From Hypomesus transpacificus (taxonomy: Eukaryota; Chordata; Actinopteri; Osmeriformes; Osmeridae), in the NCBI RefSeq assembly GCF_021917145.1, contig NC_061063.1:9972763-10036762 (forward strand): a stretch of DNA of 64,000 bases. Reading direction: 5' to 3'. The translations under genes and the position numbers were made by a program. Positions 20,450 to 59,746 of this stretch are shown here, one piece after another (position 1 is the stretch's first letter; every line of letters starts with the position of its first letter). The notes beneath the pieces are model-generated. The model saw nothing but the letters and a program-made list of their open reading frames with translations, had not been told where the DNA came from and did no database searches.

Positions 20450-22110
20450 CAGTGCCCTCCAAAAGTATTGGAACAGTGAGGCCAATTCCTTTATTTTTGC
20501 TGTAGACTGAAAACATTTGGGCTTGACATCAAACGATGAATGTGAAACCAGAGATCAACGTTTCAGCTTTTATTTCCAGGTATTTACATCAGGATCTGAT
20601 GCACAAATTAGAAAATATCACCTTTTTGTTCGAACCCACCCATTTGTCACGTGAGCAAAAGTATTGGAACATATGACTGACAGGTGTGTTTTGTTGCCCA
20701 GGTGTGTCCTATTACATACATTATTCAATCAATAAATACCACTGAATGTCTACACTCAGGTTCAGATTGGGTAAGATAGGTTTTGTCTATGCAGACTGTA
20801 TTCAGAGGTGAAAACAACATGAAAACCGGAGCGCTGTCTTTGGGTGAAAAACAAGCAATTGTGAGTCTTAGAGAAGATGGAAAATCAATCAGAGCCATTG
20901 CAGAAACATTGGCCATAGCCAGTACAACCATTTGGAATGTCCTGAAGAAGAAGAAAACTACTGGTGTACTAAGTAACAGACGTCGAACAGGTAGACCAAG
21001 GAAAACATCAGCAGTTGATGACAGAAACATTGTGAGAGCTGTAAAGAAAGACCCTAAAACAACTGTTAGTGAGATCAGCAACAACCTCCAGATGGCAGGA
21101 GTGAAGGTATCACTATCTACTGTTCGCAGAAGACTTCATGAACAAAAGTACAAGGGCTACACCAGAAGATGCAAACCACTCATTAGCAAGAAGAATAGGA
21201 AGGCCAGGCTGGAATTTGCCAAAAAGTACAGAGATGAACCTCAAAAATTCTGGGACAAAGTTTTATAGACTGATGAGACAAAGATTAACTTTTACCAAAG
21301 TGATGGAAAGGCTAAAGTTTGGAGAAAGAAAGGAACTGCTCATGATCCCAAACACACAAGCTCATCTGTGAAACACGGTGGAGGTAATGTCATGGCTTGG
21401 GCTTGCATGGCTTCTTCTAGGACGGGCTCATTAATCTTCATTGAGGATGTAACACATGATGGCAGCAGCAAAATGAACTCGGAAGTCTACAGAAACATTT
21501 TGTCTGCCAATTTAAGGAAAGATGCAACCAAACTGATTGGCAGAGCCTTCATCATGCAGCAAGATAACGACCCAAAACACACTGCCAAAACAACAAAGGA
21601 GTTCATCAGGGGCAAGAAATGGAAGGTATTAGACTGGCCAAGTCAATCTCCAGACTTAAACCCTATAGAGCATGCATTTTACCTGCTTAAGAGGAGACTG
21701 AAGGGAGGAACCCCACAAAACAAACAACAACTGAAAGAGGCTGCAGTGAAAGCCTGGGAAAGCATCAAAAAGGAAGAATGCAAAAGTTTGGTGACGTCAA
21801 TGGGTCACAGACTTGCTGCAGTTATTGAAAGCAAAGGATTTGCAACTAAATATTAAGTCTTATTCACTTAAATATGTTTTAAGTATATCTGTTCCAATAC
21901 TTTTGCTCACATGACAAATGGGTGGATTCAAACAAAATGTGATATTTTCTTAGTTGTGCATCAGATCCTGATGTAAATACCTGGAAATAAAAGCTGAAAC
22001 GTTGATCTCTGGTCTCACGTTCATTATTTGATGTCAAGCCCAAATGTTTTCAGTCTACAGCAAAAATAAAGGAATTCGCCTCACTGTTCCAATACTTTTG
22101 GAGGGCACTG
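20450..22110 (+). mobile_element. Tc1/mariner element, near complete, IR/DR type
   Basis: A 1661-bp element bounded by TA dinucleotides (20448-20449, 22111-22112) with inverted repeats of about 222 bp (20450-20671 and 21889-22110). Each inverted repeat carries an outer and an inner copy of the direct repeat CAAAAGTATTGGAACA, the IR/DR arrangement known from Sleeping Beauty-like elements. The two ends differ at few positions and the transposase frame has one stop, so the insertion looks young compared with the other elements here. Confidence 0.95.
20819..21856 (+). pseudogene. Tc1-family transposase with a single premature stop
   Basis: A frame of about 345 codons starting MKTGALSLGEKQAIV. 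It has the N-terminal paired-like helix-turn-helix (roughly residues 1-60), a GRPRK AT-hook-like linker (RRTGRPRKTS), a second HTH, then the DD34E catalytic core: TDET, QQDNDPKHTAK and the PSQSPDLNPIEH segment with the Glu. The frame is continuous except for an in-frame TAG at 21266-21268, directly before TDET where the family normally has Trp. Tc1 transposases are about 340 aa, so nothing else appears missing. Product: cut-and-paste integrase acting on the terminal repeats in the nucleus; truncated before all catalytic residues here. Confidence 0.92.
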
Positions 22111-29799: not shown

Positions 29800-30016
29800 G
29801 TGTGTGCATGTTAGAACAAGAGATGTCAGAAGGAAAAACAGAGAAGAATGCCAAAAATCTTGGTGTGGTGTGCTTGGTAGTGTGGCCTTGATCTGCTCAA
29901 GCCTGCTGGCGTGACCTGGAAAAGGGTTAGTGACCCTAACCCTAACCCTGGAAAAGAGAATGTGTCCCAAGCAGCAGTCTGGCTTGTTTGGAGCCAAAGT
30001 TCTGCTCATCTGTGAT
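28665..30016. other. Intergenic, microsatellites only
   Basis: TG tract 28895-28913, (CA)n 29570-29619, (GT)n plus (AT)n 29763-29800, and CCCTAACCCTAACCC near 29933. No exon supported. Confidence 0.6.
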
Positions 30017-33000
30017 TCCAGACTAACAGAACAACAGGACTGGCTGATCAGAACAGCAGTGCTCAGTCTAGTCATGCCAGACTAACAGAACAACAGGACT
30101 GGCTGATCAGAACAGCAGTGCTCAGTCTAGTCATGCCAGACTAACAGAACAACAGGACTAGCTGATCAGAACAGCAGTGCTCAGTCTAGTCATGCCAGAC
30201 TAACAGAACAACAGGACTGGCTGATCAGAACAGCAGTGCTCAGTCTAGTCATGCCAGACTAGCAGAACAACAGGACTAGCTGATCAGAACAGCAGTGCTC
30301 AGTCTAGTCATGCCAGACTAACAGAACAACAGAACTGGCTGATCCGAACAGCAGTGCTCAGTCTAGTCATGCCAGACTAACAGAACAACAGGACTAGCTG
30401 ATCAGAACAGCAGTGCTCAGTCTAGTCATGCCAGACTAACAGAACAACAGGACTGGCTGATCAGAACAGCAGTGCTCAGTCTAGTCATGCCAGACTAACA
30501 GAACAACAGGACTGGCTGATCAGAACAGCAGTGCTCAGTCTAGTCATGCCAGACTAACAGAACAACAGGACTGGCTGATCAGAACAGCAGTGCTCAGTCT
30601 AGTCATGCCAGACTAACAGAACAACAGGACTGGCTGATCAGAACAGCAGTGCTCAGTCTAGTCATGCCAGACTAACAGAACAACAGGACTAGCTGATCAG
30701 AACAGCAGTGCTCAGTCTAGTCATGCCAGACTAACAGAACAACAGGACTGGCTGATCAGAACAGCAGTGCTCAGTCTAGTCATGCCAGACTAACAGAACA
30801 ACAGGACTGGCTGATCAGAACAGCAGTGCTCAGTCTAGTCATGCCAGACTAACAGAACAACAGGACTGGCTGATCAGAACAGCAGTGCTCAGTCTAGTCA
30901 TGCCAGACTAACAGAACAACAAGACTGGCTGATCAGAACAGCAGTGCTCAGTCTATTCATGCCAGACTAACAGAACAACAGGACTGGCTGATCAGAACAG
31001 CAGTGCTCAGTCTAGTCATGCCAGACTAACAGAACAACAGGACTGGCTGATCAGAACAGCAGTGCTCAGTCTATTCATGCCAGACTAACAGAACAACAGG
31101 ACTGGCTGATCAGAACAGCAGTGCTCAGTCTAGTCATGCCAGACTAACAGAACAACAGGACTGGCTGATCAGAACAGCAGTGCTCAGTCTAGTCATGCCA
31201 GACTAACAGAACAACAGGACTAGCTGATCAGAACAGCAGTGCTCAGTCTAGTCATGCCAGACTAACAGAACAACAGGACTGGCTGATCAGAACAGCAGTG
31301 CTCAGTCTAGTCATGCCAGACTAACAGAACAACAGGACTAGCTGATCAGAACAGCAGTGCTCAGTCTAGTCATGCCAGACTAACAGAACAACAGGACTGG
31401 CTGATCAGAACAGCAGTGCTCAGTCTAGTCATGCCAGACTAACAGAACAACAGGACTGGCTGATCAGAACAGCAGTGCTCAGTCTAGTCATGCCAGACTA
31501 ACAGAACAACAGGACTGGCTGATCAGAACAGCAGTGCTCAGTCTAGTCATGCCAGACTAACAGAACAACAGGACTAGCTGATCAGAACAGCAGTGCTCAG
31601 TCTAGTCATGCCAGACTAACAGAACAACAGGACTAGCTGATCAGAACAGCAGTGCTCAGTCTAGTCATGCCAGACTAACAGAACAACAGGACTGGCTGAT
31701 CAGAACAGCAGTGCTCAGTCTAGTCATGCCAGACTAACAGAACAACAGGACTGGCTGATCAGAACAGCAGTGCTCAGTCTATTCATGCCAGACTAACAGA
31801 ACAATAGGACTGGCTGATCAGAACAGCAGTGCTCAGTCTAGTCATGCCAGACTAACAGAACAACAGGACTGGCTGATCAGAACAGCAGTGCTCAGTCTAG
31901 TCATGCCAGACTAACAGAACAACAGGACTAGCTGATCAGAACAGCAGTGCTCAGTCTAGTCATGCCAGACTAACAGAACAACAGGACTGGCTGATCAGAA
32001 CAGCAGTGCTCAGTCTAGTCATGCCAGACTAACAGAACAACAGGACTAGCTGATCAGAACAGCAGTGCTCAGTCTAGTCATGCCAGACTAACAGAACAAC
32101 AGGACTGGCTGATCAGAACAGCAGTGCTCAGTCTAGTCATGCCAGACTAACAGAACAACAGGACTAGCTGATCAGAACAGCAGTGCTCAGTCTAGTCATG
32201 CCAGACTAACAGAACAACAGGACTGGCTGATCAGAACAGCAGTGCTCAGTCTAGTCATGCCAGACTAACAGAACAACAGGACTGGCTGATCAGAACAGCA
32301 GTGCTCAGTCTAGTCATGCCAGACTAACAGAACAACAGGACTGGCTGATCAGAACAGCAGTGCTCAGTCTAGTCATGCCAGACTAACAGAACAACAGGAC
32401 TAGCTGATCAGAACAGCAGTGCTCAGTCTAGTCATGCCAGACTAACAGAACAACAGGACTAGCTGATCAGAACAGCAGTGCTCAGTCTAGTCATGCCAGA
32501 CTAACAGAACAACAGGACTGGCTGATCAGAACAGCAGTGCTCAGTCTAGTCATGCCAGACTAACAGAACAACAGGACTGGCTGATCAGAACAGCAGTGCT
32601 CAGTCTATTCATGCCAGACTAACAGAACAATAGGACTGGCTGATCAGAACAGCAGTGCTCAGTCTAGTCATGCCAGACTAACAGAACAACAGGACTGGCT
32701 GATCAGAACAGCAGTGCTCAGTCTAGTCATGCCAGACTAACAGAACAACAGGACTAGCTGATCAGAACAGCAGTGCTCAGTCTAGTCATGCCAGACTAAC
32801 AGAACAACAGGACTGGCTGATCAGAACAGCAGTGCTCAGTCTAGTCATGCCAGACTAACAGAACAACAGGACTAGCTGATCAGAACAGCAGTGCTCAGTC
32901 TAGTCATGCCAGACTAACAGAACAACAGGACTGGCTGATCAGAACAGCAGTGCTCAGTCTAGTCATGCCAGACTAACAGAACAACAGGACTGGCTGATCA

Positions 33001-33143
33001 GAACAGCAGTGCTCAGTCTATTCATGCCAGACTAACAGAACAACAGGACTGGCTGATCAGAACAGCAGTGCTCAGTCTAGTCATGCCAGACTAACAGAAC
33101 AACAGGACTGGCTGATCAGAACAGCAGTGCTCAGTCTAGTCAT
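30017..33143. repeat. 59-bp satellite array, 53 units, with 14-unit higher-order repeat
   Basis: Fifty-three head-to-tail units of exactly 59 bp (53 x 59 = 3127 bp) with no length variants. Each unit has GCCAGACTAACAGAACAACA, then GGACTRGCTGATCAGAACAG and a CAGTGCTCAGTCTAGTCAT end, and contains the palindrome CTGATCAG (some units read GGCTGATCAG, some AGCTGATCAG). Variants include G/A in ACTRGCTG, G/T in CTAKTCAT and CAACAGG/CAATAGG. Units 21-34 (31197-32022) and 35-48 (32023-32848) carry the same variants in the same order, so an 826-bp block is tandemly duplicated. No reading frame of interest. Confidence 0.98.
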
Positions 33144-34850
33144 GCCTAGGTGGGATTCTGACGTTGTTTTGTCGCTGCTGTTTGTTTGCCCCCATCTCTC
33201 TGGTATCCTTCATCTTATCTTCTTCCCTCTCATGTCCACACAGGGAGATGTGGTGTATGGTTTTTGGTCTAATGGAGGTAGACATCCAGGAACATTCAAA
33301 ACCCTATGAAGTATATGAAGCTACCATGGAGAAAGGCAAAAAGAAAATTCAAAAAAGATTTCGAAAAAATCATATTCTCTCCTTTCACTGTGTGAAAAAT
33401 GATTGAGAAAAAAAAGTTTTGAATGGTTGAAAAAAACATCTAACAGAAAAAGAACATCTAAAAGAACATCTCAAAAGTAAAAACTAAATACGTTTTCTAC
33501 TGTACTGTACTCTACTGTACTCTACTGTACTGTACTGTACTGTACTCTACTGTACTCTACTGTACTTTACTATGTTTTTGGCTTCTCTGTTCTCCTCTCT
33601 CCTTTCACTGTGTGTGGAAAAAAAGTTTTGAAAGGTTGAAAACATATTTTGGAAAAAAGTTACATTATAGATAAGACCGAGGGAGTTAGCGATGTCGACA
33701 TGACTGAAATTAGACACATTCCTGATCACCCATGGCCATATATGAGGGAGATGTTGGAAATTGTCAGAATGGTCAGTAAAATAGGTAGTAGTAATGTCTA
33801 CTCTTTACTTACATATTCTGTATGTCATTCTTCTTTACTTTACTGTAACTTAGTGAAAAAGTGCAGTCAGTACTTCACCTTTTAGTGAATCTTTTTAAAC
33901 CTGAGTATCTGTACCTCTACTTGAGTGAAGGATGTGTGTACTTTTGCCATCTTTGTCTATTAGACACACATGGGCCATGAGAAGGGTATGGGCAAATAAG
34001 GAAAGTTTGTGTGTGAGTACTTGTGTATGTGTGGAAAAGGCTTGCTGTATGACAGTGTGTGTGTTGCTCATAAAATAGTATATAGGAGACTTTGTGTGGT
34101 TTTGGAGTTTCTAGATGTCAATACTTAATAACTTCCTAAATCTTCCTGTGCTACTCCACAACTTCCCAGGAATTCCCCTTGAAGGAATCCCCTCTCACGT
34201 GTAACCCCGCCCTCTGTGAAAACAGCGAACCAGATATGGAGAAAGTGAAAGTAAAAAATACATAAAATAAAACAACGTTTGTCTATGATGTCCTACGTTG
34301 CTTTTATCTAGCCCCATGGTCCTGGAGGAGCGTGGTCTCGTTGCTGTGTACTGTACCAACTTTATATGGTTGAACGACAAATAAAAACCTACTACAACTA
34401 CTAAACACCAGGCCATCTGCACTTCTGTTCCGGGTTGAAGGATTAAAGGTGTTTACATGTGGACTGCCCCTGAATCTCTGATGTACACCTTCTGTTTTCA
34501 CTTTCCTTCTCTCTCAACTGACAAATTACATCAGACAACATTTACTGGAAAAGAGAAAATAAACCCGGTTTTCCTTGGAACTCTTTTGCAGTTCCAAGGA
34601 AACACAGTCCTAACAGGCTGAATCTGTATTTAATAGTTTTGCCCTGGACACACACACATGCTCTGAGTTAAACAGGTTCCCAAACTCGTTATTGTCGGTC
34701 TAGATGAGTAACTTGACCCACAGTTGATTAGTCCTCTGCTTAGCCATGTGATCAAGGTTGAATGGACAGGGTCAGGGCAGAGCAACCTGGTGAGCTCTCA
34801 CACAAACGGCCTGTTCAGAGAGGAGGTGTGACAGAAAGATGGGAGCCATC
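33144..34850. other. Intergenic, no gene seen
   Basis: Contains a TACTGTACTCTACTG repeat (33496-33568) and AT-rich unique sequence. A CTTTCACTGTGTGKGAAAAA segment occurs twice (near 33382 and 33602). No supported exon. Confidence 0.55.
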
Positions 34851-38317: not shown

Positions 38318-39986
38318 ATGGGATCCCAGACGTCCAAGGGAGGAGTAGCCGTGGAGGCAAGCGCGGCTGCCGCGGATGCTGCCGCTGTCAAAACTAATGG
38401 ACAGGTATGTTTACGCTCAATTCAATATTTTCTCACTCAAACAGAAAATAATAAGTAGTTTGGTTTTAATTGTGTGTCTGCTAATTTGTTATTATTGAGG
38501 ACATTGTTTACTTTTGTCGGTAAACGCTGAAGTAGCCTAGACGTAGAGGTGTGGGGTTGGTTGGGGTGAGTGATAGCCACGCTATCCGCGAGAGGATTAA
38601 ATCACCTCAAGCGTAGTATTGCGAATCAAATGTGTTGATTATAAATGTTGTAAGTAGTAGATATTTAGTCATGTCGAAGCTAAACAGGATGACGGGCTAG
38701 CCGCTGAGGTGACCACGGTTGAAGTCTCCCCGGGTGCAGAAGCCCCAGACACGCTGGCCAACACGCCGTGAGGAGACAGGTGTCCCCGCTTAAGACCCCG
38801 GACTGATGCACACACAATCATTATGCATTAGAAGTGTCCTATTATGAAATTAGTTTATCATAGTTAGTAATTAAAACGTATTAGACTTCGAATTCAAGCA
38901 AGTGTAGATTGCAGCCACACCCCTTTTTATCCATCGAGTCTAGACAGATGTCTAGTATTGGTAACGCGCTTTTCTCATCACAACCAAGACATGCTTTGTA
39001 TAAACTGATTTTTTATTTAGCCCGTACAGCGGTTGAAAGTTCCCATTTGAAAGTACCGTCGTTTTCATTAAGAATAGTGAAGTAAAGCACAGCTTTGCGT
39101 CGTCGTCTTTGTTGAGAGATCATGATGCTCCGTCTGTCTGGAAGCCGCTTCACACGTGCTCATGTGGCGTGATCGCCGCCTGTCGGTTGACCGTGGTGCT
39201 GCAAGGCGTCACCGTCGAAGGAGACTGTGGTTAATTGATGAGCACGACGATGCTCTGACGGATTTAGATTGATCTAGAGATTCGACTAAAGGCCCAACTG
39301 TATAAAATCAGTGTAGCCTACACTTTGAATGTGAGGAATATTTTTCACCATTCTTATTATTATAACATGTCGACAGTTTGTAATTTGGTGCCATTTTCTC
39401 TCCAACGTTTTCCCAGGAGAACGGCCATGTTAAGACCAATGGAGACGTTTCTGCCAAGCCAGACGGCGACACCGCAGCCACCAACGGCTCTGCCGAGGTG
39501 GCCAAGGAGCCGGAGGCAGGAGCAGGCGGGGACGCCATCGAGCCAGCGCCTGCGGCGGACGGAGAGGCCAAGCCCGAGGAGGTCGCCAAGGAAACCCCAA
39601 AGAAGAAGAAGAAGAAGTTCTCCCTGAAGAAGACTTTCAACTTCAAAGGCCTGAAGAAGAGCAAGAAGTCTGGTGGGGAGGTGAAGGAGGAGAAGGAAGG
39701 GGCGGAGGAGGTGAAGGAGGCGGCTCCTGCTGCTGAAGCTCCCAAGACGGAGGAGGAGCCTGCCAAGGGGGAGGCACCGGCTGCTGTGAAGGAGGAGGTG
39801 AAGGAGGAGGTGAAGGAGGAGGTGAAGGAGGAGGTGAAGGAGGAGGTAAAGGAGGAGGTGAAGGAGGAGGTGAAGGAGGAGGTGAAAGAGGAGGTGAAGG
39901 AGGAGGTGAAGGAGGCCGCCCCAGAGGCCTCAAACCCTAAAGAGGAGAGCAGCTCGACCCCGGCTCCCTCTGAACAGAAGGAGTGA
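38318..39986 (+). CDS. marcksl1: MARCKS-like protein 1
   Basis: Two coding exons, 38318-38404 and 39417-39986 (phase 0 intron, GTATGT/TTTCCCAG), give 218 aa; the family is about 200 aa. It starts MGSQTSKGG, a myristoylation signal with Gly2 and Ser/Lys following. [12 protein letters not shown] at the exon junction is the conserved MH2-type region where the intron lies in this family. The effector domain (about residues 91-113) is [20 protein letters not shown], which binds acidic phospholipids, calmodulin and actin and is phosphorylated by PKC at the Ser/Thr. The rest is acidic, Ala/Pro/Glu-rich and disordered. Oddity: residues 153-192 are ten perfect KEEV repeats. Acts at the inner plasma membrane to control actin. 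The 3' UTR is long and ends near the AATAAA at 40745. Which teleost paralogue it is cannot be told here. Confidence 0.95.
39786..39905 (+). repeat. In-frame 12-bp coding repeat in marcksl1
   Basis: Ten units of GTGAAGGAGGAG (two with single silent changes, GTAAAG and GAAAGAG) encode Val-Lys-Glu-Glu. Near identity at the DNA level indicates recent expansion rather than old selection on the peptide alone. Confidence 0.95.
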
Positions 39987-43252: not shown

Positions 43253-46200
43253 ATGGCGCTGTCTTCTGCTCAAGGAACAAAGAAGAAAGTTTGCTATTAT
43301 TATGATGGTAAGTGATAGACTCGGTAGACTTGCATTTTGGTATCAGATGTATGGTGTATTAGTGCACGTCGTGGGCTCACAACAATTGTATGTATTCTAG
43401 TTTTAAAAGAGGTGTTGAACATGGAAGTTTGGCTAGCACTAACGTTTGCCAGACAGCGGTTAAATACTACTAGCAAGCTAGCTAGTCTAGCAATTCAACT
43501 AACAAGCTAGCAAGCTAGGGTGCAATCAAGAAATGGTTGTCCCGAGTAGTAAGTTAGCTAGGCTAGCAGTTGTGATTATTGCTACAGTCAACATGCATAT
43601 GATCAAGATGTTTCGATATAAATAATAGACTAGTTTTTGCTTCTATATAACGCGGTCTAAGTACATTTTTTTTTTACGATTACTTCACAAGACTAATAGC
43701 AGGATGGCATTAACGTCGTTAGCTAATTTGCTAGGTTAGTTCCACTATCTTGGTGATCTAGTTTCACTAGCACTGCCTGGGTAACGATGGACACAAGTTC
43801 GACTCGTGTGAATCCTGCAGCTGCTGTGATGGTGTGTGTCATCACCTCTGTCCTCCTCATCCAGGAGATGTGGGGAACTACTACTACGGCCAGGGACACC
43901 CTATGAAGCCGCATAGGATTCGCATGACACACAACTTGCTGCTAAACTATGGACTGTATAGAAAGATGGAGATCTACGTGAGTAGACAACAGGAATGGGA
44001 TGGGATTAAATAATGTGTGGTTATATCACTGAGGGAATTGGCGGGATACTGGACTCTTTATTCTGCATAAATGCTGCTAACTCGTCTTCAACCCGTATTT
44101 GTCAAAACCAAGATGTCATCATGTTGTTAGGTAGATTTGTAAACCCAGGTTTAATCTTTCCTCTCCTCCCATTGGCTGTTGCGTGTGTTACCGGGGACTG
44201 CAGAGACCTCACAAGGCCAGTGGAGAGGAGATGACCAAGTACCACAGTGATGACTACATCAAGTTCCTCAGGTCCATCCGGCCAGACAACATGTCCGAGT
44301 ACAGCAAACAGATGCAGAGATGTGAGTTAGATGAGCCCTTCTGGACTCTCATCACTGGACTCCTGTCATGGGACTCATTTGATTGTAGGAATCACAGGGA
44401 CCTCAACAGATCACAGGTCTTTCATACTGGGAGGGTGTTATTGGATGTGTGTGTGTGTGACAGCTACAGTAACATGACTTCTGGGTTGTGACCTCCTCAT
44501 GCTTTCCTCCCTCAGTCAACGTAGGAGAAGACTGCCCTGTGTTTGACGGCCTGTTTGAGTTCTGTCAGCTCTCAACTGGGGGCTCTGTCGGTGAGTGTCT
44601 CTCTCTTTCCCTCTCTCTCCACTCCCGCTTCTTTCTCCCCCACCCTCTTTCTCCCTCTCTCTGTTTCTCTCACTCCCCCTTTTCACTCTCTCCTCCTCAC
44701 CTCTCCTGAGCTGTTAGCCTCAGTAACCGCCCTGTCTCCTGGTCTCTGTCCTGCAGCGGGGGCAGTGAAGCTGAACAAGCAGCAGACTGACATTGCCATC
44801 AACTGGGCCGGAGGACTCCACCATGCCAAGAAGTCGGAGGCATCCGGCTTCTGCTACGTCAACGACATCGTCCTAGCTATCCTGGAGCTTCTCAAGTAAC
44901 AACACTGTCTGTGTATCACCCTGTCTGTCTGTGTTTCTACCTGTCTGTCTGTGTTTTAGCCTGTCTGTCTGACTGTCTGTGTTTTTGCCTGTCTGTGTTT
45001 CAGCCTGTCTGCCTGTCTGTGTTTCAGCCTGTCTGCCTGTCTATATGTGTATCAGCCTGTCTGTCTGTCTATATGTGTTTCAGCCTGTCTGTCTGTCTGT
45101 CTGTGTTTCAACCTGTCTGTCTGTCTGTGTTTCATACTGTCTGTCTGTTTGTGATTCAGCCTGTCAGTCAGTGTTTCAGGCTGTCTGCTAGCCTGTCTTC
45201 CTGACTACCTGTCAGTAGGTCCTACAGTGTATCAGTCTGGTTGAGCATGCTCAGTAGAGGCTGTCCTGCTGTTCCCTGCAGGTACCACCAGAGGGTGCTG
45301 TACATAGACATCGACATTCACCATGGCGACGGGGTAGAGGAGGCCTTCTACACCACAGACAGAGTCATGACGGTGTCCTTCCACAAGTACGGAGAGTATT
45401 TCCCTGGGACAGGAGACCTGCGGGTGAGAGAGAGACAGAGAGAGAGAGAAAGTTTCAGGATATCTGAAGGTGTGTGTGTGTGTTTCAGGATATGTGAAGG
45501 TGTGTGTGTTTCAGGATATCTGAAGGTGTGTGTGTGTTTCAGGATATCTGAAGGTGTGTGTGTTTCAGGATATCTGAAGGTGTGTGTGTTTCAGGATATC
45601 GGAGCAGGGAAGGGGAAGTACTATGCTGTAAACTACCCCCTGAGGGACGGAATCGAAGATGAGTCATACGAAGCCATCTTCAGACCGGTGAGTCTCCCTG
45701 GACCAGCACTGAGTTCCCCCGCCCTTTTGACGCTGGGGGGAGGGGAGGGACCATGTGTCCTAACAAGTTTAGTGAAACATGAACAACATGACCTCGTCAG
45801 GCCCCCAGCAAAGGGGTTAGAATTAGTGAAAAGGTTAGTGTTAGGGTTTAGTGGTTAAATATAACATCATTTTTAATGGTAGTGAATTGTAAGGATCTTT
45901 ATTATAGAGACACAAACCTGTGTGTGTGTGTGTGTCAGATCATGGCTAAGGTGATGGAACCTGTGTGTGTGTCAGATTATGGCTAAAGTGATGGAACCTG
46001 TGTGTGTGTGTCAGATTATGGCTAAAGTGATGGAACCTGTGTGTGTGTCAGATCATGGTTTAAGTGATGGAACCTGTGTGTGTGTCAGATTATGGCTAAA
46101 GTGATGGAACCTGTGTGTGTGTCAGATCATGGTTTAAGTGATGGAACCTGTGTGTGTGTCAGATTATGGCTAAAGTGATGGAACCTGTGTGTGTGTCAGA

Positions 46201-47846
46201 TTATGGCTAAAGTGATGGAACCTGTGTGTGTCAGATCATGGTTAAAGTGATGGAACCTGTGTGTGTGTCAGATTATGGCTAAAGTGATGGAACCTGTGTG
46301 TGTGTGTGTCAGATCATGGCTAAAGTGATGGAACCTGTGTGTGTGTCAGATTATGGCTAAAGTGATGGAACCTGTGTGTGTGTGTCAGATCATGGCTAAG
46401 GTGATGGAACCTGTGTGTGTGTCAGATTATGGCTAAAGTGATGGAACCTGTGTGTGTGTCAGATTATGGCTAAAGTGATGGAACCTGTGTGTGTGTCAGA
46501 TTATGGCTAAAGTGATGGAACCTGTGTGTGTGTCAGATTATGGCTAAAGTGATGGAGATGTACCAGCCCAGTGCCGTAGTGCTGCAGTGTGGAGCAGACT
46601 CTCTCTCTGGGGACAGACTGGGCTGTTTCAACCTCACCATCAAAGGTACTCACACACACACACACACACACACACATGCATTCACACACCTATCTTGCTC
46701 CTTTCAGAACAGTGTTAACGTGTGTGTGTCTGGTGGTGTGTCCAGGCCATGCCAAGTGTGTGGAGTACATGAAGAGCTTCAACCTGCCCCTGCTGATGCT
46801 GGGTGGAGGGGGCTACACCATCAGGAACGTGGCCCGCTGCTGGACCTTTGAGACGGCTGTGGCTCTGGACAGCAGCATCCCTAACGAGCTGCCCTACAAC
46901 GACTACTTTGAGTACTTTGGGCCGGACTTCAAGCTGCACATCAGCCCGTCCAACATGACCAACCAGAACAGCAGCGAGTACCTAGACAAGATCAAGCAGC
47001 GTCTGTTTGAGAACCTGCGCATGCTGCCCCACGCCCCGGGAGTCCAGATGCAACCCGTCCCTGAAGACGCCCCACACCCAGACAGTGGAGATGAGGAGGA
47101 CGACCCCGACACACGCATCTCCAGTACGCACACACACATGCTAGTGTGTCGTCACCAGGCCTAGCCTAGTGTGTCGTCACCAGGCCTAGCCTAGTGTGTC
47201 GTCACCAGGCCTAGTCTAGTGTGACGTCACCAGGCCTAGTCTAGTGTGACGTCACCAGGCCTAGCCTAGTGTGACATCACCAGGCTTAGTGTGACATCAC
47301 CAGGCCTAGTGTGTCGTCACCAGGCCTAGCCTAGTGTGACGTCACCAGGCCTAGCCTAGTGTGTCGTCACCAGGCCTAGCCTAGTGTGACATCACCAGGC
47401 CTAGCCTAGTGTGTCGTCACCAGGCCTAGTGTGACATCACCAGGCCGTTTGTGTTTTCAGTCCGCGCCCACGACAAGAGGATCGCGTGTGACGAGGAATT
47501 CTCAGACTCCGAGGACGAGGGGCAGGGGGGCGGGCGCAGGAACGCAGCCAATCACAAGAAGACCAAACGAGTGAAGAAGGAGGAGGAAGGGGAGAAACAA
47601 GGTGAGGTCTCCACACACACACACACATTCAAGGTAATGGTTCACTGTATGATCACTTGCCTTTGCCAGATGTGAAAGAGGAGGAGGAGGATCAGGAAGA
47701 GGAGAAGATGGATACTTCAGGGTAAGAGAAGCTGCTGACTAGAAAAAGCAACTTAACCTTTGACTCTTCTCACTACGGTGTCTGTGGTCGTGTTCTAACT
47801 GACAGTTCTTTCTGTCAGGCCAAAAGAAGAGGTTAAAACCACCTGA
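43253..47846 (+). CDS. hdac1: Histone deacetylase 1 (class I, Zn-dependent)
   Basis: Twelve coding exons: 43253-43307, 43865-43977, 44204-44321, 44516-44590, 44757-44895, 45282-45423, 45595-45687, 46537-46645, 46746-47123, 47461-47601, 47670-47721, 47819-47846. They total 1443 nt (480 aa) with matching phases and GT-AG borders. Start ATGGCG gives the [15 protein letters not shown] family N-terminus. Catalytic landmarks are present: [15 protein letters not shown] (His dyad about 142/143), [17 protein letters not shown] (Zn-binding Asp and His), [11 protein letters not shown] (third Zn ligand) and GGGGYTIRN (catalytic Tyr about 305). The tail has SGDEEDDPD, the acidic [13 protein letters not shown] with likely CK2 sites, and a Lys/Glu-rich end. 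It removes acetyl groups from histone lysines in Sin3, NuRD and CoREST complexes in the nucleus. Introns 6 and 7 hold decoy-acceptor minisatellites. Confidence 0.98.
45453..45594 (+). repeat. hdac1 intron 6 minisatellite copying the exon 7 acceptor
   Basis: Five units of about 27 bp, each TTTCAG followed by GATATCTGAAGGTGTGTGTG (one reads GATATGTGAAGG), immediately before the true TTTCAG/GATATCGGAGC at 45589-45605. The first six bases of exon 7 are copied; use of four of these decoys would read Asp-Ile-stop. Confidence 0.9.
45928..46536 (+). repeat. hdac1 intron 7 minisatellite copying the exon 8 acceptor and exon start
   Basis: Sixteen tandem units (about 33-45 bp, commonly 37) each made of GTGTGTGTGTCAG plus ATTATGGCTAAAGTGATGGA and ACCT, ending against the real exon 8, which begins with the same 20 bases and then diverges to GATGTACCAG. 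About half carry ATCATGG instead of ATTATGG. Confidence 0.95.
47150..47452. repeat. hdac1 intron 9 minisatellite
   Basis: About 12 units of CCTAGCCTAGTGTGTCGTCAC plus CAGG, with CGTC/CATC and TGTC/TGAC variants, filling nearly the whole intron up to the exon 10 acceptor. Confidence 0.93.

Positions 47847-54570: not shown

Positions 54571-59746
<5,176 letters not shown>

Follow-up and report, generated by a model that had tools for sequence, protein, structure and literature searches.

In a 64 kb stretch of the Hypomesus transpacificus genome, called the window here (positions 9,972,763-10,036,762 of contig C4, which measures 11.5 Mb; the assembly comprises 376 contigs and 437 Mb), intron 7 of the histone deacetylase gene hdac1 holds a minisatellite whose units derive from the start of exon 8, and sixteen decoy acceptors precede the true exon. 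We read this array as a minisatellite of the type named "mirage" in amphioxus, where tandem copies span an intron/exon boundary. In this reading, to which we give a probability of about 75%, the array would have expanded to 17 copies, would be tolerated by use of the last acceptor and would exchange sequence with the exon. The starting point would have been a tandem duplication at the GT-rich tract upstream of exon 8 that included the acceptor together with the first 20 bases of the coding exon; the duplicated unit would then have expanded to 17 copies, the last being the real exon start, within a chromosome stretch unusually rich in tandem arrays. That the array is tolerated would be explained by splicing from exon 7 to the last copy, which alone has the whole exon and its own donor, each decoy offering 20 exon bases and then the next tract. 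Occasional use of a decoy would lead to a stop codon and probably to message decay, and exchange between array and exon would have gone on, the coding exon having two silent changes in common with the array.

The hdac1 gene was recognized on the plus strand of the window by the top match of a PDB search (histone deacetylase 1) and by the Pfam domain Hist_deacetyl. Its exons were placed with human HDAC1 as the guide in a spliced alignment, tblastn also being used, which gave a model of eleven exons, the first and the last partial. Two minus-strand genes, eif3i and part of txlna, were likewise modelled from human sequences. By spliced alignment the true exon 7 lies at 45595-45687 (plus strand; all positions are those of the window unless a contig or locus is named). 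The true exon 8 lies at 46537-46645 on the same strand (spliced alignment and tblastn), with 109 bases in phase 0, the first 20 of which form the last array copy. Its acceptor site falls within the conserved deacetylase domain (Pfam Hist_deacetyl).

The array itself (45925-46556, plus strand) was found with Tandem Repeats Finder (TRF; 16.9 copies) and has a unit mostly of 37 bp that reaches 20 bases into exon 8. The junction motif CAG/AT[TC]ATGG occurs in 17 copies, with exon-side starts at 45939, 45976, 46015, 46052, 46089, 46126, 46163, 46200, 46235, 46272, 46313, 46350, 46389, 46426, 46463, 46500 and 46537, the last being the true exon. The 16 decoy units (45939-46536), each taken from the exon-side base of a decoy acceptor to the next CAG, measure 37 bp in twelve cases, 39 bp in two, 35 bp in one and 41 bp in one. 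Every unit opens with the exon's first 20 bases, or a sequence close to them, and goes on through ACC and a (TG)n tract to the CAG acceptor of the next copy, and a TG tract of 9-17 bases stands upstream of every one of the 17 acceptors. The CAG is kept in all 16 decoys; the acceptor 23-mer from -20 to +3 is the same as at the true site in 9 of them, and all 20 coding bases are the same in 10. The 37-mer from -17 to +20 occurs ten times, the true site counted, and the last decoy agrees with the true site over 99 bases upstream and 20 downstream. When the 16-mer across the true acceptor was sought with up to three mismatches on both strands of the 64 kb, only the 17 array copies were found, which excludes chance. 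An earlier interpretation of these letters, the sequence-only reading, had described a unit, commonly of 37 bp, that holds the CAG acceptor and the first 20 coding bases of exon 8 with GT repeats, and had counted sixteen decoys before the true exon. The unit list and the spliced alignment bear out all of this, and the alignment that had been proposed as a check did find exon-derived sequence in the units. The features of a mirage that can be read from sequence were present: a boundary-spanning unit, kept splice signals, and homogenised units with the boundary copy left out.

A search of the same genome with exon 8 returned two more genes, which by similarity we take to be hdac1-like (locus L002) and hdac2-like (L003). 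Both have an intron at the same place as intron 7, and TRF found no tandem array in either 3.1 kb locus. Exon 8 starts with ATCATGGCTAAGGTGATGGAGATGTAC in L002 (ATC ATG GCT AAG GTG) and with GTGATGGCTAAGGTGATGGAGATGTAT in L003, nearly the same as the exon of the window; given this near-identity in array-free relatives, the exon is the older part. The true exon 8 has ATT and AAA, as do 10 of the 16 decoys, while decoys 1 and 13 have ATC and AAG and match L002 over all 20 bases. The 5'-most decoy thus keeps the sequence of the array-free relative, as a lagging edge copy would, but decoy 13 does too. AAG is ancestral by two relatives and ATC by one only. Two silent changes are common to the true exon and the greater part of the array, a fact that the sequence-only reading had not reported, the relatives being needed to reveal it. 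Intron gain by tandem duplication was also considered and was ruled out, since the copies lie in an old intron 7 whose position L002 and L003 share.

To follow the products of decoy splicing, each decoy was read in the frame of exon 7. A stop was met in 16 of 16: eight, 45 bases in, at the TAA of the following unit, two at a TAA of their own unit, five at a TGA (CTAAAGTGA) and one at a TAA two units on. No decoy of the 16 kept an open frame through to the end of exon 8. The premature stop foreseen by the sequence-only reading therefore holds for every decoy, and its route, into the TAA of the next unit, for eight of the sixteen, the other eight stopping elsewhere as listed. Across this array and the three described below, stops were found for all 28 decoys. 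As controls we took every YAG (pyrimidine-AG) up to 620 bases upstream of 22 array-free modelled acceptors and at least 40 bases from the donor, and 130 of these 146 intronic sites gave a stop as well. Since most control sites stop, decay of decoy transcripts would be expected but is no special property of the array, and the stops as a sign of design were ruled out.

The exon 8 array is not singular, and to that extent the sequence-only reading is not borne out. Copies of 25 acceptors and 25 donors of the three modelled genes were sought up to 1,500 bases away on the same strand; the scan passed over comparison windows in which the first three bases all mismatched, and a recheck of the three array acceptors without this shortcut left the result unchanged. 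Boundary-copy arrays were found at three of the 25 acceptors (hdac1 exon 8 with 16 copies, hdac1 exon 7 with five and txlna 56433 with four) and at none of the 25 donors, numbers too few to call (Fisher two-sided 0.23). The second array (45452-45600, plus strand) repeats the hdac1 intron 6 acceptor with the first 6 bases of exon 7 in a unit of GTTTCAGGATATCTGAAGGTGTGTGT; its five decoys are spaced 26-30 bp and read Asp-Ile/Met-stop, two residues and then the stop. The third (56418-56580, minus strand, the 5' limit approximate) repeats the txlna acceptor and exon start before the true exon, placed at 56314-56433 on the minus strand by spliced alignment. It has four decoys with a unit of 34 bp, CACATAAACAAGGTGTAACCTCTCTCTCCCCCAG, and reading from them ends in a stop at codon six. 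ATAAAC stands in the three inner decoys where the exon and the outermost decoy have ATAGAC, a difference that would be protein-changing. In a txlna relative on another contig (L050, C12:5636221-5636600) a tandem array ends just before the same acceptor and, in the 380 bases read, has no copy of the exon start, so an acceptor array need not take in the exon.

A wider scan covered the window and the 200 kb before it, with 673 candidate reading frames and two filtered lists (124 and 56 rows) judged by eye; other arrays may have been missed in this way, and the first filter (at least 9 pyrimidines) is itself blind to both hdac1 arrays. It gave a fourth array (L021:3421-3523), which lies 26 kb upstream of the window in a macoilin gene and has three copies before the exon, for which donor, phase and stops were worked out. 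The exon was matched by Pfam (Macoilin, E 1.3e-9), and a PDB search with it gave no match. At least four mirage-type arrays are therefore present in 264 kb, in three genes (hdac1 twice, txlna and macoilin), which, together with the published amphioxus mirages, removes the case for a singular array and suggests that a vertebrate genome makes such arrays repeatedly. The acceptors of the last macoilin decoy and of the exon stand almost against a strong donor-like sequence, CCCAGAGGTGAGTG, and the first two decoys have CCCAGGGGTGAGTG; with acceptor and donor-like sequence almost abutting, these copies resemble recursive-splicing (ratchet) sites. In hdac1 intron 5, an array of TGTGTTTCAGCCTGTC-like units (44905-45169) is acceptor-like and not derived from exon 6.

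These arrays lie in a region that is unusually rich in minisatellites but is not the sole such place. Tandem repeats cover 27.8% of the window and 0-83% of the twenty 10 kb stretches before it (mean 25%; 19 of 20 above 7%), as against 0-9.9% (mean 2.1%) of ten 5 kb stretches elsewhere. Of sixteen more samples, each of 2.5 kb, one (L049) consisted of N and was excluded; the remaining fifteen had a mean cover of 6.7%. Nine of them, on C4 between 5 and 11.4 Mb, had 0-13%, with 0% at 10.3 Mb, after the window, and the six near contig ends comprised two at 20% and 23% and four at 0-1%. Within the three modelled genes, TRF arrays cover 3,416 of 6,901 intron bases and 42 of 3,090 coding bases, the latter only at the starts of the three array exons. 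In the 264 kb taken together, 274 distinct arrays have a period of at least 10 and make up 23% of the sequence; 49 of the 274 have periods of 26-37, so the periods of the four mirage arrays are not unusual.

We then considered how the true acceptor might be chosen. Given that the last decoy and the true site are alike over 99 and 20 bases, local sequence does not decide among the acceptors. For doubled 3' splice sites of beta-globin, the available part of one study reports splicing exclusively at the distal site, with very low efficiency and more U2AF35 bound, and the same distal choice with 14, 55 or 205 exon bases behind the upstream copy, its authors adding that exon length has been reported to matter (PMC5389562). 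Because these constructs favour the distal site and amphioxus mirages are reported to leave splicing intact, we expect 46537 to be the acceptor used, possibly with slow removal of intron 7. Judged from the DNA, the last copy is most likely the one used, its whole exon and donor would mark it, and decoy messages would probably decay. Structural marking of the true acceptor was rejected: in folding predictions the mean unpaired probability over -20 to +3 ranged from 0.23 to 0.56 across the 17 acceptors, and the true site had 0.53. A (CA)13 tract found by TRF just after the exon 8 donor (46651-46676, plus strand) is complementary in sequence to the array's (GT)n tracts, and with it included the predicted openness drops mainly for decoys 3, 11 and 13, which is weak evidence.

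Several points weigh against the mirage reading. Use of the last acceptor is read from the DNA of one assembly. In the beta-globin constructs, as far as the accessible text goes, the distal site wins at each of the three exon lengths, which supports use of the last site and does not support the short exon piece as its cause. Scanning for AG would favour the first AG past whichever branch point is used, and with a candidate branch point in every unit the local sequence gives the last copy no preference. The ancestry of ATC is drawn from one relative, and the shared changes would fit a passage from the array to the exon as well as one from the exon to the array, the latter through recurrent duplication. 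In the txlna relative, on a different contig, a tandem array likewise stands directly before the acceptor, and repeat-rich stretches are not confined to this region (a mean of 6.7% in the fifteen other samples; 20% and 23% at two contig ends).

Other explanations have to be set beside it. Each unit might be a self-contained acceptor, with the copied coding bases serving as branch point for the next unit and the true exon depending on the last decoy, an idea we hold as possible though doubtful. Using a branch-point matrix that was not trained, and taking the best score between -15 and -50, we obtained as best candidates CTAAA at -27 for hdac1 exon 8, CTGAA at -18, GTAAC at -17 and, on the repeated unit of macoilin, CTGAC at -20. 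The candidate CTAAA (46507-46511, plus strand) lies within the coding-base copy of the last decoy, 27 bases before the exon, and in all four arrays the best candidate falls in the exon-derived or junction part. Shuffled units, however, score as high in 9.8%, 6.9%, 63% and 10% of cases for the four arrays, so that the placement of branch points in copied or junction sequence is a suggestive lead near chance. The array could also be a working regulator, with decoys that bind U2AF or UG-binding proteins (TDP-43, CELF), slow the removal of intron 7 or divert some transcripts to decay, and with copy number setting hdac1 output; this seems to us unlikely. UG tracts are bound by TDP-43 and CELF, and such tracts of 9-17 bases before each of the 17 acceptors, the 9 decoys with the true 23-mer and the stops in 28 of 28 decoys would all suit it. 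Doubled acceptors bind more U2AF35, and weaker doubled ones are spliced very inefficiently, in what is available of the construct study (PMC5389562). Yet most intronic AGs lead to a stop (130 of 146 control sites), and a mutational cause is favoured by the three further arrays of this kind, whose tracts differ (GT or CT), the four being spread over three genes.

That the array was inflated or invented by the assembler is very improbable: it is known from the assembly, but its units vary in substitutions and tract length, the contigs met in this assembly are 7-17 Mb long, similar arrays occur in other genes, and on an 11.5 Mb contig of a 376-contig assembly an error over 0.6 kb is the less likely case. 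It is scarcely credible, finally, that the decoys are real alternative exon starts adding protein residues; their CAGs are intact, but no decoy stays open through the end of exon 8 and the site is inside the conserved domain of the deacetylase.

The mirage reading places the hdac1 array in a kind already known from amphioxus; here it is large and in a fish, and the silent changes shared by exon and array are its most notable feature. In the accessible parts of the amphioxus papers, the data on globin and Adh3 suggest that regular splicing is not disturbed (PMC3087553), and the Adh and TnC mirages are said to yield no aberrant mRNAs (PMC3902484). Length polymorphism, somatic instability and normal splicing are reported there, and many but not all copies keep their splice signals. 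As far as those texts go, the likeness extends to tandem copies over an intron/exon boundary, kept splice signals and homogenised units with the boundary copy left out. The differences are in size and placement: 16 decoys here versus 6 and 3 units in two BflGb6 haplotypes, a unit of 37 bp versus 150-160 bp in BflGb6 and 10-72 bp in Adh3, and acceptors only, among the sites tested here, whereas both boundaries are affected in amphioxus.

Reed and Maniatis reportedly used doubled 3' splice-site constructs of beta-globin in 1986. In the accessible descriptions of such constructs, a full downstream copy likewise competes with an acceptor upstream of it that carries part of the exon, but they are artificial and have two copies versus seventeen. 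Zhuo et al. are said to have described, in 2007, human introns that arose from tandem arrays. A further paper treats changes of human genes through internal tandem repeats (PMC2812944). Both cases likewise draw extra splice sites from tandem repeats in genes, but the outcome there is new introns or exon growth, while no new intron is implied here. Polymorphic minisatellites occur in fish introns, for example in the sea bream growth hormone gene (PMC3045353), likewise an intron of a fish gene, and boundary-spanning copies are not mentioned in the portion available. A literature search, judged mostly by title and the start of the abstract and with subscription papers largely outside it, found no vertebrate mirage among the papers listed, which is not proof of absence; the accessible parts of two fish papers (PMC3045353 and PMC3151243) describe none.

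With 17 near-identical acceptors, 9 of the decoys being the same as the true site over -20 to +3, the array is a natural experiment on how the spliceosome chooses a 3' splice site where the local sequence gives no guide. The recurrence of such arrays opens their fate (silent, harmful via lost transcripts, or a source of variation in output) to study by copy number, and the shared silent changes indicate that a conserved coding exon can be pulled into minisatellite evolution. A far-reaching version, in which duplication-prone stretches of this fish's chromosomes repeatedly seize acceptor ends and turn coding exon starts into active parts of unstable minisatellites, the array rewrites the exon silently, the exon borrows its branch point from copied coding bases and a decoy number varying between individuals sets productive HDAC1 splicing, is in our view improbable.

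Elsewhere in the window, a 59-bp minisatellite of 53 copies with 98% matches lies at 30003-33146, and two adjoining frames at 20780-21856 resemble transposases, presumably of the Tc1/mariner type. A reading frame at 39786-39915, which we take to be MARCKS-like, holds coding repeats of 12 bp; tandem growth thus takes place within a long open frame as well, provided that the unit preserves the frame.

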